A stretch of DNA of 6,566 nucleotides, taken from assembly GCA_030445695.1 (NCBI GenBank), contig JASUTF010000023.1, positions 1-6,566 of the forward strand, written 5' to 3'. Position numbers and translations under genes: made by a program. This DNA comes from Candidatus Iainarchaeum sp. (GTDB lineage: Archaea; Iainarchaeota; Iainarchaeia; JAADDC01). The notes beneath the pieces are model-generated. The model did not search any database. It saw nothing but the letters and a program-made list of their open reading frames with translations, and had not been told where the DNA came from. Positions 2 through 6,566 of this stretch are shown one piece after another (position 1 is the first letter of the stretch; each line of letters starts with the position of its first letter).

Positions 2-433
2 AAAGGTGTATCACCGGTTATAGCCACGGTCCTTATGGTGGCAGTAGCCATCGCCGCCGCAGTAGTGGCCTACTCCTGGTTCATGTCCATGCAGGCATCG
101 GTCCAGGCAGAGGCGTCCAGGGGCGCAGGCACCATCGGCAAGGAACGGTTTGCAGTTTCGTCTATTTTCTGCGATGAGAGCAACTACCTACACTTTGTCA
201 TTCAGAATATGGGTGACGAACCAGTGAACAACGCGAATATCACGGTTTATGTGAAGAATGCAGACACCAGCGAAGTGAACGCGTCTACCAAAGTTTCTAA
301 CCAGAGCTTTCCCGCAAGCAACCCGCAGGAGGTCAATACGGGTATTCCTTGCAGCAACCTTCCGGACAACGTTATAGTAGAGGTGCACCTCCCGGGCGGT
401 TCTGTGGTTAGCGGTACGGCAAGGATACGCTAG
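2..433 (+). CDS. Archaeal type IV pilin (class III signal peptide), 5'-truncated by window edge
   Basis: The frame ending at TAG 431-433 is open to the first base of the window. Its first codons read KGVSPVIATVLMVAVA, followed by more Ala/Val-rich sequence. This is the prepilin cleavage site (expected between G and V) plus the hydrophobic helix of archaeal Pilin_N-type pilins, so the true start lies left of the window. The first in-window ATG, at 35, falls inside the hydrophobic helix and is not credible as a start. The mature part would be about 141 residues: a hydrophobic N-terminal helix of about 25 residues, a short polar linker, then a region predicted to be beta-rich. Two cysteines (SSIFCDES and GIPCSN contexts) could form a disulfide. 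Three N-glycosylation sequons are visible: NIT (236-244), NAS (278-286) and NQS (299-307). By family, this is a subunit of an extracellular filament processed by a prepilin peptidase, which is not seen here. Whether the ATPase operon about 1.8 kb downstream assembles it is inference. Confidence 0.88.
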   Translation, partial: KGVSPVIATVLMVAVAIAAAVVAYSWFMSMQASVQAEASRGAGTIGKERFAVSSIFCDESNYLHFVIQNMGDEPVNNANITVYVKNADTSEVNASTKVSNQSFPASNPQEVNTGIPCSNLPDNVIVEVHLPGGSVVSGTARIR

Positions 434-2226: not shown

Positions 2227-4137
2227 GTGGATCGTCGGCTCATCCGCGCAGCGAGGCGGTTGCTGAAGAGGGCAGCGAAGAGGGACGAGATATTCTCCCT
2301 CATAGGTTCCGGTGCGGAACCGCTCTCCCTGCCTCCCTCTGCCCCTGTACCCCCCATTGAGGACTCGGAGGATGTGCCTATTTCTCCGGCGCCGCCTCCG
2401 GTTCCGGAAGAGCCCCCTGTGGAGCCAACCGAGCCGCAGGTCTCTGTGGCCCCAGAGGTTGTGGAAGCAGCCACGGAGCCGGTTGGGCCCATCATGGTTT
2501 TTGACGAGCTGAAGCTCGATTCACAGGATCTTTCGGAGTCGCACCTGGGGGACGAACTCGTTAAGAATGCTCCCGTTGTTCTGCATGCTCTCCCGGAGGA
2601 TCTCAGGGAGTCCGTCCCTGCCGAGTGGACACCGCCCAGTTTCCGCGACGTGGACGAGAGGTATCCACTAATACCTCCCCACGCGGAGGCCCACATATAC
2701 TGGAGCGAGGAAGAGAGCAGCATCCGGTACGATGTGATCGAGCCGCCCCTCACCCGCGAGGAAGAAGAGACCATAAACCGCATAAAGGATCTTCTCCTTG
2801 ACCTGATAGAGGTCAGTTCTTACGATATATCCCGGAGGGGGAACCCGGAGAAGTATATGAGGGAGAAGTTTGAAGAGGTGGTGGACGACTACGGGTTTGA
2901 TCTCACACCCGCCCAGCGTGAGAAGTTTGCCTACTACATCATACGCGACTTCGTGGGGCTGGAGAGGATCGAACCCCTTATGCGCGACCCCAACCTTGAG
3001 GACATCTCGTGCATCGGTCCCGGGATCCCCGTCTACGTTTACCACCGCAAGTACGGATCCCTGAAGACGAACGTGGTGTTCAAGTCCTCGGAAGAACTGA
3101 ACCGTTTCATCGTGAAGCTGGCCCAGATGTGCGGCCGCCACGTCTCCGTGGCAAACCCCCTGCTGGAAGGTGCCCTGCCGGACGGTTCCCGTGTCCAGGC
3201 AACCTATGCCATCACGAAGGACATCTCCACAAGGGGAAGCACATTCACCATTCGAAAGTTCACGAAGGATCCGCTCACCATAACGGACATGCTGAACTTC
3301 GGCACGATCCCGCCGCTGCTGGCAGCATACCTCTGGCTCGCCATAGAGTACCGCCAGTCCATCCTCATATCGGGTGGAACCGCCACGGGAAAGACGTCCA
3401 TGCTGAACGCACTATCCCTTTTCATTCCTCCCGAAGCAAAGGTTGTCTCCATCGAGGATACGCCGGAGCTGCGTCTTCCCCATGAGCACTGGATCCAGAA
3501 GATCGCGCGCGAGGGAGTGGAGGGCGCCGGTGCCGTCACGATGTTTGATCTCCTGAAGGCGGCGCTACGTGAACGTCCCGACTACATCGTCGTGGGAGAG
3601 GTGCGTGGAAAGGAGGCATACGTGCTCTTCCAGGGCATGGCCACGGGACACCCCGGTCTGGCAACCATCCACTCGGAGGATATGGAGACGCTGGTGGACC
3701 GCCTCACGACACCGCCCATTTCCCTGCCCCCGTCCCTGCTCCACGCGCTGGACATCATCATCTTCATGGGCAGGTCAAGGATTGGCTCGGTGGACGTGCG
3801 TCGCGTCCGTGAGATGCACGAAGTAATCACTGTAGACGTTAAGAACGGGCGCCCGGTTACCAACAAACTCGCACACTGGATTCCCGGTGACGACCGCTTC
3901 GAGTTCGCGTCCGACAAGAGCTACGTGATCGACAAGATCATAAGGGAGAGAGGCATATCTCCCGAGAGTGTCTGGGGCGAGCTGCGGCGCAGGGCATACG
4001 TGCTCAAGTGGATGAGGGATAACAACATCCGCTACTATCGCGACGTGGGCAGGATCATAGCCCGCTACTATAAAGAGCCGGAAAAGTTGCTGGAGGAAAT
4101 CGGCTATGCTGAAGCCCCTGATGAGGATCGGGTATAG
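2227..4137 (+). CDS. Archaeal type II/IV secretion (type IV pilus) ATPase, GspE/TadA-FlaI superfamily
   Basis: This 636-residue hexameric motor ATPase would power pilin assembly or secretion at the cytoplasmic face of the membrane. Residues 1-22 form a basic amphipathic helix. Residues 32-76 are a proline/acid-rich linker with 17 prolines. A helical region lies at about 177-250 and the N-domain at about 255-340 (LEDISCIGPG and GALPDGSRVQ blocks). The RecA-like core follows: Walker A GGTATGKTS with K389, Asp box SIEDTPEL (E410, D411), Walker B DYIVVGEVRG with E458, and His box GHPGLATIHSED with H475 and H482. A tail of about 95 residues (to 636) follows. All catalytic elements are intact. It is longer than typical FlaI (about 550), mainly because of the N-terminus. 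The GTG start is supported by the TATA-like element 25 bp upstream and the short space to the divergent gene. It overlaps the next gene by 32 bp, so the platform proteins are probably co-translated. An archaellum role is not supported, because no fla/arl accessory genes are visible. Confidence 0.94.
   Translation: MDRRLIRAARRLLKRAAKRDEIFSLIGSGAEPLSLPPSAPVPPIEDSEDVPISPAPPPVPEEPPVEPTEPQVSVAPEVVEAATEPVGPIMVFDELKLDSQDLSESHLGDELVKNAPVVLHALPEDLRESVPAEWTPPSFRDVDERYPLIPPHAEAHIYWSEEESSIRYDVIEPPLTREEEETINRIKDLLLDLIEVSSYDISRRGNPEKYMREKFEEVVDDYGFDLTPAQREKFAYYIIRDFVGLERIEPLMRDPNLEDISCIGPGIPVYVYHRKYGSLKTNVVFKSSEELNRFIVKLAQMCGRHVSVANPLLEGALPDGSRVQATYAITKDISTRGSTFTIRKFTKDPLTITDMLNFGTIPPLLAAYLWLAIEYRQSILISGGTATGKTSMLNALSLFIPPEAKVVSIEDTPELRLPHEHWIQKIAREGVEGAGAVTMFDLLKAALRERPDYIVVGEVRGKEAYVLFQGMATGHPGLATIHSEDMETLVDRLTTPPISLPPSLLHALDIIIFMGRSRIGSVDVRRVREMHEVITVDVKNGRPVTNKLAHWIPGDDRFEFASDKSYVIDKIIRERGISPESVWGELRRRAYVLKWMRDNNIRYYRDVGRIIARYYKEPEKLLEEIGYAEAPDEDRV
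4092..4096 (+). promoter_or_regulatory. Shine-Dalgarno (GGAGG) for first TadC-like gene
   Basis: GGAGG ends 9 nt before the ATG at 4106 and lies inside the 3' end of the ATPase gene. It supports the ATG at 4106 over the in-frame ATG at 4121. It also contrasts with the leader-free start of the operon's first gene. Confidence 0.65.
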
Positions 4138-4990
4138 GTTTTTTGGCAAGCGTGTCCACCGCTACCGTGCCCGTCTCCAGCCGCTGGCGGACCGCCTCAG
4201 GGTTGCCCGGCTTCCATACTCCGTCGAGGAGTACGTTGCAGGCGTTGTTCTTCTAACACTCCTTGCCTTTATCGTTTCCTTTACCACGGCGGCGGTCATG
4301 TTCGCAGCGGTCTACAAGTATAATATCGTGACGTCCCTCGCTGTCGCCCTCATATTATCCGTTTCCATCGCCGGCCTCGTCTGGATAGGCCTTATGGGAT
4401 ATCCGGGCTACGTTGCTGGAAACCGGAGGGACGAGATCGATGCGCGCCTGGCCTTTGCGGTTACGCACATGGCCACGCTGGCAGGTACAGGCATCCCTCC
4501 GATCGTTATGTTCAAAGCCCTGACGCGGTTCAAGGACTACGGTGAAATATCCAAGGAGTGCGCCTACATCGTCCGGGACGTGGAGGTTTTCGGGAAGGAC
4601 CTTTACACGGCCATAGCAGACGCCGCACGTTATTCCCCGTCCAAGGCGTGGTCAGACGTTCTCTGGGGCATCGTCTCAACGCTCCGTAGTGGCGGAAACC
4701 TGCGCGCGTATCTATCCGAAAAGGCACGGCAGCTCGTTGAGATGCACGAGCGCGAGGAAAAGAAGGCGATGGAGACGCTTAACGTGCTCACGGAGATTTT
4801 CATGGTGATCTTTGTCCTCGCACCCATCACCGGTGTTATCATGATCGTGTTCATGAGCTTGCTCGGGGGGACGGTCTTCGGTGTCGATCCTCGCACCCTT
4901 CTGCTCTTTGTGATATACTTCCTCCTGCCCGTCGTGGGTCTCGGGTTCCTGATGGTGGGTAACATGAGCAAGCCAAGGGAGGTTCTGTGA
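4106..4990 (+). CDS. Type II/IV secretion membrane platform protein, GspF/TadC family (first of two)
   Basis: This 294-residue integral membrane protein carries one T2SSF-type domain. The N-terminus (1-40) is strongly basic, hence cytoplasmic. Two membrane segments at about 42-70 and 74-103 precede a helical cytoplasmic domain (about 107-225). That domain has features typical of the family: a LAGTGIPPIVMFKAL segment near its start, then DVEVFGKDLYTAIADAA and LRSGGNLRAYLSEKARQL. Two more membrane segments follow at about 227-258 and 264-287, with a short cytoplasmic tail. By family it forms, with the second copy, the inner-membrane platform on which the ATPase acts during filament assembly. 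It overlaps the ATPase by 32 bp and its TGA shares one base with the ATG of the next gene. FlaJ of the archaellum is usually a single larger protein; here, as in TadB/TadC systems, the platform is two polypeptides. Confidence 0.88.
   Translation: MLKPLMRIGYRFFGKRVHRYRARLQPLADRLRVARLPYSVEEYVAGVVLLTLLAFIVSFTTAAVMFAAVYKYNIVTSLAVALILSVSIAGLVWIGLMGYPGYVAGNRRDEIDARLAFAVTHMATLAGTGIPPIVMFKALTRFKDYGEISKECAYIVRDVEVFGKDLYTAIADAARYSPSKAWSDVLWGIVSTLRSGGNLRAYLSEKARQLVEMHEREEKKAMETLNVLTEIFMVIFVLAPITGVIMIVFMSLLGGTVFGVDPRTLLLFVIYFLLPVVGLGFLMVGNMSKPREVL
4978..4982 (+). promoter_or_regulatory. Shine-Dalgarno (GGAGG) deciding the start of the second TadC-like gene
   Basis: GGAGG lies 7 nt before the ATG at 4990 but only 4 nt before the in-frame GTG at 4987, so the ATG is the better start. 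The stop of the preceding gene and this ATG overlap as TGATG, an arrangement that allows translational coupling. Confidence 0.65.
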
Positions 4991-6207
4991 TGCCGCTGAA
5001 AATCAGGATCGGTAAAAGAACGTATAGGGTCAGCGATTTCGCCGTTGTGTTCACAGTTTCGCTCCTGTTCGCGGTTGCAGTGATAACATATGGGTTTTAC
5101 AAGTATGCGGACACGCCATACTTTTACACGCTGGTGTTCGCAGGTGTTATGGGCTTCATACTACCTGTGGGCGGTTATATCTACTACGGTTACGTCAAGC
5201 TGCAGGAGAAGGAGTATTATTTTCCACAGTTCCTGAAGGATCTGGCCGATGGGGCGAGGGCAGGCCTTTCCCTCCCGCAGGCGGTTATGAACGTCTCCAA
5301 GATCAACTACGGTGCCCTCACCGATGACGTGAGGCGGCTTGCAACATACATCTCTTGGGGGGTACCCTTTGACGAGGCCATGCGTCGTTTCGCGGAGAGA
5401 ACAGGGAGCAAAATGATACGGTCGTCTGTAGACCTCATACTGGAGGCGTATACTGCCGGCGGTGGCATTGCGGATATACTCGATACAATGGCAGAGGATG
5501 CAGGGAAGATGCGCTCGCTAAAGGAGGAGCGAAAGACGCGATTCAGCGGGTTCATAAGCACCATGTATGCCGTTTACGTTATTTTCCTCCTCATAGTTAT
5601 GGTCCTTGTCAACGCCCTTCTGCCGGAGATCCCCACCATGCCGTCGTTCGGGAAGAGCGGGGGGACTCTCTTCGTGAGCTTCGGAGTAGCCGGTGCGAAG
5701 CCCATACCTGAGGACGAGCTGATGGCCATATTTTTCCATCTTGCCATGATAGAGGCGGTCTTTGCAGGGCTGCTGGCAGGTGTGGCCGGTGAGGGGAGCA
5801 TTGCTGCAGGAATAAAGCACGCACTGATACTCATCTTCATCGGCGTTGCCGTGTTTCAGATATTTATACCGATTCCCGATCCGGTTGACAGGATCGCCCG
5901 TGCCATCGCCAAGACCCCTGCAAACATAGACGCCACTGTTTTTGTGGGCCGCTACTTCGTTGACCGTAGCATAACGGTGGGCATGATTTCAGAGGCAGTG
6001 GAGGACCGCCTGAAGCAGATGAACCTGCCAATCATCGGCTCGAGGGGGTCCATACGCTTTGATATCGACTCGGCAGGTTGCGAGCCCTGCTCGTCGGGTT
6101 ATATTCAAGTCCTTCCAGATGCAATTATCGTGAAGAGACCTGCATACGTCACGTTCAGGATAAAGACGGATCCGGATCGTGGTGCCTATGTCATCTACGT
6201 CTCCTGA
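4990..6207 (+). CDS. Type II/IV secretion membrane platform protein, GspF/TadC family (second), with C-terminal extension
   Basis: This 405-residue protein (ATG start; 406 if GTG 4987 is used) has a basic N-terminus and two membrane segments at about 17-40 and 44-70. A cytoplasmic T2SSF domain (about 72-190) contains DLADGARAGLSLPQAV and TAGGGIADILDTMAEDA. Three further hydrophobic segments lie at about 186-212, 244-265 and 273-296. Starting from a cytoplasmic N-terminus, five segments put the C-terminus outside the membrane. Residues 297-405 are a soluble, beta-rich-looking extension not usual in TadC/GspF proteins, with a C-E-P-C pair at 364 and 367. A roughly 30-residue loop between segments 3 and 4 would also be external. 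The role is probably partnering with the first copy in the pilus platform; the extension may contact pilins or the cell envelope (inference). It is translationally coupled to its upstream neighbour by TGATG and overlaps the next gene by about 20 bp. The T2SSF assignment is firm; the extension was not recognised. Confidence 0.87.
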   Translation: MPLKIRIGKRTYRVSDFAVVFTVSLLFAVAVITYGFYKYADTPYFYTLVFAGVMGFILPVGGYIYYGYVKLQEKEYYFPQFLKDLADGARAGLSLPQAVMNVSKINYGALTDDVRRLATYISWGVPFDEAMRRFAERTGSKMIRSSVDLILEAYTAGGGIADILDTMAEDAGKMRSLKEERKTRFSGFISTMYAVYVIFLLIVMVLVNALLPEIPTMPSFGKSGGTLFVSFGVAGAKPIPEDELMAIFFHLAMIEAVFAGLLAGVAGEGSIAAGIKHALILIFIGVAVFQIFIPIPDPVDRIARAIAKTPANIDATVFVGRYFVDRSITVGMISEAVEDRLKQMNLPIIGSRGSIRFDIDSAGCEPCSSGYIQVLPDAIIVKRPAYVTFRIKTDPDRGAYVIYVS

Positions 6208-6566
6208 TTTCTGGAAGATGCCCCCGCGCATAAAGATCTATGAGGCGCTGGGAAGCATAGCGGACGGAAGAGTGCACGCCATTTCGGACTCCGAGGCTTT
6301 AGTTATTTCTTCTGACGGATCCAGGCGTTACCACGTTCGTATGGTGGGTGATGCGATCTCTTCTGATGACAACGGCTCTGTCTACCGTGGCTATCTTGGT
6401 TATCCCGCCATCGCCTTTTTGATGCTGAGAGGAAGTATCCCCTTTGACGAGCGCGTGGCGAAAATGCTGAAAGGGATCCCGTGGCGGGAGCTGAACGAGC
6501 GGTTCAAGCGGTATGATCTGGTGGAGCAGTATGTCCTGGACCGTGTTCCTGATCCGGACGCCGTGA
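6188..6566 (+). CDS. Unrecognised protein, fourth gene of the pilus operon, 3'-truncated by window edge
   Basis: An open frame of 126 codons starts at ATG 6188, overlaps the end of the second TadC-like gene by 20 bp, and has no stop before the window ends. An alternative ATG at 6218 would leave a 10-bp gap and begin MPPRIKIYEALGSIADGRVH. Neither start has a convincing Shine-Dalgarno sequence. The visible part is soluble, with no signal peptide and no membrane segment. It begins with a helix-like IKIYEALGSIADGRV segment, then a strand-rich stretch (ALVISSDGSRRYHVRMV), then a mixed helical region ending in a charged segment (WRELNERFKRYDLVEQYV). Codon use and base composition match the upstream operon, and the stop-free frame continues directly from the tightly packed genes, so it is probably real. 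I do not recognise the family. Position suggests a cytoplasmic accessory of the pilus system, or simply an operon passenger. Confidence 0.72.
   Translation, partial: MSSTSPDFWKMPPRIKIYEALGSIADGRVHAISDSEALVISSDGSRRYHVRMVGDAISSDDNGSVYRGYLGYPAIAFLMLRGSIPFDERVAKMLKGIPWRELNERFKRYDLVEQYVLDRVPDPDAV

Follow-up and report, generated by a model that had tools for sequence, protein, structure and literature searches.

A CxxC-containing domain at the outer end of a half-platform protein in an archaeal type IV pilus locus

We have found that the second of two adjacent platform genes in an archaeal type IV pilus locus encodes a protein that continues for about 109 residues beyond its last membrane helix. 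The observation is real and beyond chance, as the tail is homologous in two archaeal phyla, carries a conserved CxxC motif and is predicted to fold with high confidence. An earlier note on this DNA had described such an extension, with a C-E-P-C pair, after the last hydrophobic segment, and the open reading frame, the hydropathy profile, AlphaFold and 26 homologous tails all bear it out. Platform proteins have been described as the most poorly characterised core component of type IV filaments (PMC10191384), and a natural lineage with a platform-borne outer domain would offer a handle on the outer-side events where pilins exit the membrane.

The split platform and the position of its tail

The window, by which we mean the whole stretch of DNA analysed, is an entire contig of 6566 bp (G000:C16) from a 664-kb archaeal genome (G000). 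At its left edge lies a type IV pilin gene (2-433, plus strand; Pilin_N E 3e-6, arch_flag_Nterm E 1e-9), truncated at the 5' side by the contig end, whose product contains two cysteines (codons 170-172 and 350-352), as had been noted; the pilins encoded near other extended platforms have paired cysteines as well. A geranylgeranyl-reductase-like protein and an undecaprenyl diphosphate synthase (minus strand) are encoded between this pilin and a FlaI/TadA-type pilus assembly ATPase (2227-4137, plus strand; T2SSE E 9e-34, archaellum ATPase model E 2e-128). The ATPase is followed by a partner half-platform protein of 294 aa (4106-4990, plus strand; Pfam T2SSF E 3e-15), with four membrane segments by hydropathy and no extension, and then by the 405-aa protein studied here (4990-6207, plus strand; Pfam T2SSF E 6e-18), whose gene starts with the ATG at 4990, ends with the stop codon at 6205-6207 and is coupled to the partner gene through a TGATG overlap. 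The score of the 405-aa protein against PF00482 (T2SSF) is 65.4 bits, above the curated cut-off of 25.2, and it is co-encoded with a secretion ATPase and a type IV pilin, as expected for a member of this family.

The two neighbours contain one T2SSF domain each and thus form a split platform: the ArlJ/FlaJ models match the 294-aa partner with their N-terminal half and the 405-aa protein with their C-terminal half. The latter is not an ArlJ/FlaJ equivalog, since its 66.5 bits lie far below the NCBIfam cut-off of 400. Denise et al. (PMC6668835) assign the C-terminal half of ArlJ as TadB-like and the N-terminal half as TadC-like, and because the 405-aa protein matches the C-terminal half we consider it the TadB-equivalent, and not a second TadC-like protein as had been proposed.

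Other features of these loci deserve mention. Directly 3' of the platform gene, and overlapping it, the window (6188-6566, plus strand) contains the start of a gene for a member of a conserved family of ~157 aa (KLPPRIKVYEALGAIADGR...), also found at L031:11199-11672, which had no Pfam match and ends in a QxTLF motif resembling a PCNA-binding peptide. The same genome has a second, Epd-like pilus locus (L156, G000:C17) with an ATPase, two extension-free T2SSF proteins, an A24 peptidase and a pilin that has a class III signal and is free of cysteines, providing an internal contrast to the window locus. Two Diapherotrites MAGs have a LAGLIDADG intein inserted in their pilus assembly ATPase (L042:5723-8887 and L044:1982-5269).

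Hydropathy of the 405-aa protein identifies five membrane segments (residues 14-32, 46-64, 193-211, 244-262 and 278-296) followed by a polar tail (297-405), and the helices and tail of the AlphaFold model are consistent with this profile. Between TM2 and TM3 lies a helical T2SSF domain (residues 65-192; 5182-5565, plus strand) that aligns with the cytoplasmic domains of PilC, OutF and EpsF with Z scores of 12-13, and this cytoplasmic fold fixes the orientation of the protein, with the N-terminus inside and the C-terminus outside. The charges fit the positive-inside rule, as loops 1-2 and 3-4 have few positive residues and the N-terminus and the cytoplasmic domain have many. With five membrane segments and the N-terminus inside, the 109-residue tail (5878-6204, plus strand), including C364-E365-P366-C367 (6079-6090, plus strand), is placed outside; the odd number of segments and the extracytoplasmic tail of the earlier note therefore hold. 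Its statement that TadC/GspF proteins normally end in the cytoplasm is not supported. Bacterial PilC/GspF has three TM segments linking two cytoplasmic domains (PMC10191384) and for that reason ends outside, and the chain of archaeal homologues without the extension stops right after TM5. Ending outside is thus normal for the family, and only the added domain is unusual.

Two single cases fit this location. One genome, G232, encodes a fused form (L117) and also a free-standing copy of the extension domain (L125:903-1340, G232:C24) of ~145 aa, which starts with MLSFNSKIILVSFLILTASIGCLAPKEN, has a lipoprotein-type signal and sits between genes that by inspection are L24e-like and nucleoside diphosphate kinase-like; its predicted export supports the outside location. 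In the other, a non-extended relative (L012, G126:C3), the last ~100 residues form at the same end a different, surface-type Ig-like tail with weak CarboxypepD_reg/MG2 matches (CarboxypepD_reg E 1e-5, below the cut-off) and no CxxC, and this may be read as a further sign of an outer position for that end of the protein.

Distribution, origin and fold of the extension

A set of 389 archaeal genomes sampled across the whole domain contained 24 with the extension, all of them confined to two phyla. In the DPANN phylum whose records are titled mainly Diapherotrites it was present in 16 of the 19 genomes examined, including all five that are at least 90% complete, and in the window's own phylum in 9 of 87, belonging to two families. 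Homologues from Methanosarcinales, Bathyarchaeota, Thermoplasmata, Aenigmatarchaeota, Nanohaloarchaea and Asgard archaea do not have it. Scanning the genome contigs with a single sequence returned no homologues, and these were recovered from the contigs only by alignment-based search. The extension may serve as a marker domain for both of these DPANN groups; their relatives in culture live in attachment to other cells (PMC11291902).

In trees of the core computed without the tail columns, both a quick and a careful one, all 25 extended copies fall on one side of a branch, which in the careful tree (61 rows) has a support of 98/94 and appears in 96% of bootstrap trees. With the root of the tree not inferred, the simplest reading of this topology is that the extension was gained once. 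If the tail had no function, being a neutral appendage or a fusion annotated in error, this would agree with its absence from most archaeal homologues; its retention in two phyla with a conserved motif, a confident fold, a single origin and a continuous reading frame in the fused copies found speaks against this, and we regard such a reading, largely refuted by the cross-phylum conservation, as having almost no chance of being correct.

The alignments comprised twelve full-length homologues and 26 tails. From the 26 tails, AlphaFold predicted the tail alone with a pLDDT of 95 and a pTM of 0.87, in the order helix, strand, helix, strand, CxxC turn and four strands, that is, a mixed fold in which six strands are combined with one long helix and further short ones. 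The tail had been described as polar and beta-rich in appearance; it is polar, but the predicted fold is mixed alpha/beta with a long helix rather than purely beta. No confident Pfam or NCBIfam match to the extension was obtained, a Pfam scan of all 26 tails giving only scattered weak single matches, and a profile of the tail searched against PDB sequences returned no match. A structure search with the whole model matched only the T2SSF core and the membrane helices. With the tail alone, Foldseek against the PDB found nothing below E 0.3 and a search of viral structures nothing below E 0.02, and the best VIA structural match, to SusE (Z 3.1, 70 residues, 3.7 A), is not confident. The extension thus has a structure that is predicted with confidence but was matched in none of these searches, it is unassigned in Pfam and NCBIfam, and neither did we find a report of this platform extension in the open-licence literature. 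Given the caveats of these searches, we do not claim that the missing structural matches amount to a new fold.

The cysteine pair and the putative role of the domain

The motif and the extension are conserved together, a point that the earlier note had proposed to check: CxxC occurs in 25 of the 26 tails, 14 of these 25 having CxPC, and the remaining tail, L008, carries CC there and is also missing the long helix region. C364 and C367 are the sole cysteines of the 405-aa protein, and in 23 of the 25 fused copies (L035 is cut by a contig end; the standalone L125 is excluded) the pair likewise represents the only cysteines, the other two having one extra. No conserved histidine was found in the 26 tails. 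The earlier note had left the choice between a disulfide and metal binding, and as there are two cysteines, histidine is not conserved and one tail has CC instead, a disulfide fits better, metal binding by a single chain being unlikely. A zinc ribbon or rubredoxin knuckle in one chain was rejected, as four Cys/His ligands are required. Two protomers could in principle hold one ion with 2 x CxxC in the manner of a zinc hook, joining platform subunits outside the membrane, given that platform proteins are oligomeric (PMC10790770, PMC8978795), that the CxxC with its nearby Gly is like a metal knuckle and that two members show a sub-threshold match to the Desulfoferrodoxin N-terminal model (best E 0.21). 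We consider this very unlikely, as no further ligand is conserved and a CC variant is ill-suited to a Cys4 site.

Most likely, the CxxC would form an intradomain disulfide that stabilises the extracytoplasmic fold, a role that probably also falls to the cysteine pairs in the co-encoded pilins. Pilin-like operon neighbours of extended platforms have mostly 2, 4 or 6 cysteines. Counts of proteins with a single N-terminal TM segment near platforms were 26 even to 7 other for extended and 43 to 31 for non-extended ones (Fisher p 0.049), a marginal excess that relies on crude gene calls and is suggestive only. VKOR was not found in the window genome nor in 19 genomes of the other phylum, which counts against the disulfide proposal; Thioredoxin_4 was not found in the window genome either.

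The lack of a detected VKOR, together with the conserved CxxC, its frequent CxPC form and the cysteine pairs of the co-encoded pilins, would suit a putative redox module on the platform, acting on cysteine-paired pilins by oxidation or isomerisation during their entry into the filament. The window genome also encodes an anchored thioredoxin-family protein (L155, G000:C24:60400-61900) with a CPHC motif and an N-terminal hydrophobic segment, and the adjoining gene encodes a membrane protein that is CcdA-like by eye, without a CcdA Pfam match. This reading is nevertheless improbable in our judgement: none of the 26 tails matches a thioredoxin-family Pfam model at E <= 1, the tail has no confident structural match, the CC variant is tolerated and no obvious catalytic residue is conserved beyond the cysteine pair. 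Its stronger form, in which transient mixed disulfides between the CxxC and the pilins would couple pilin oxidation to polymerisation where VKOR is not found, we hold to be even less probable. As a separate observation, large secreted cysteine-rich proteins (7-23 Cys) are encoded near the pilus locus at L031:12294-15339, L038:6539-8182, L034:4252-5955 and L036:13167-14894 (all minus strand); they mostly carry a W-rich C-terminal motif (e.g. PWW...W) and had no significant Pfam match where tested.

In our proposal the protein supplies the TadB-equivalent second half of an archaeal type IV pilus platform that is split in two, with the usual N-in, five-TM layout and the C-terminus outside. To this outer end a compact alpha+beta domain may have been joined in the ancestor of this platform lineage and then retained in Diapherotrites/Iainarchaeota-type archaea and in two families of the window's phylum. 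Because the domain is located where pilins exit the membrane, handling them is its likeliest job: it could take up pilins at the platform's outer mouth, guide them or hold them there, and so do locally the work for which archaella and bacterial pili have separate stator or alignment subunits. A platform-pilin interface through the extension, as the earlier note suggested, is therefore plausible. Taken as a whole, with a single gain, an intradomain disulfide and a pilin-receiving role, we see this proposal as evenly poised between being right and wrong.

Alternatively, the domain could anchor the platform, as a stator, to the S-layer or to a surface protein without contacting pilins. The archaellum reaches the S-layer by means of ArlF/ArlG (PMC8978795), and G126, with its unrelated Ig-like tail in the corresponding position, suggests a general outer docking role. 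The tail also evolves faster than the core (identities of 43% vs 72% to L002 and 20% vs 38% to L010), which we count in favour of this reading as well as of the pilin-receiving one. On the other hand, an S-layer partner gene was not consistently seen in the inspected operons and the free-standing lipoprotein copy of G232 would have to dock alone, so that we find an anchoring role rather unlikely.

Comparison with known platform systems

With its putative pilin-receiving domain, the protein can be set against several known platforms. The TadB/TadC and Epd-type split platforms (PF00482) resemble it in having one T2SSF domain per protein, a cytoplasmic helical domain like that of PilC, OutF and EpsF, an adjacent gene pair and a FlaI/TadA ATPase and a pilin alongside; at the level of domain layout, the difference is the folded domain of about 105 residues that follows the last membrane helix. 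Compared with the ArlJ/FlaJ platform of the archaellum, it is split in two genes and carries the extension. The bacterial GspF/PilC platform shares the cytoplasmic fold and the N-in, C-out arrangement, but it has no outer domain, and proteins such as PilNOP or GspLM serve these systems as separate subunits in the periplasm (PMC10191384). The G126 homologue is also a half-platform protein with a domain fused to this outer end; because that domain is a different one and has no CxxC, it is probably an independent addition. The platform machine is thus a known one, and the new part is its lineage-specific outer domain.
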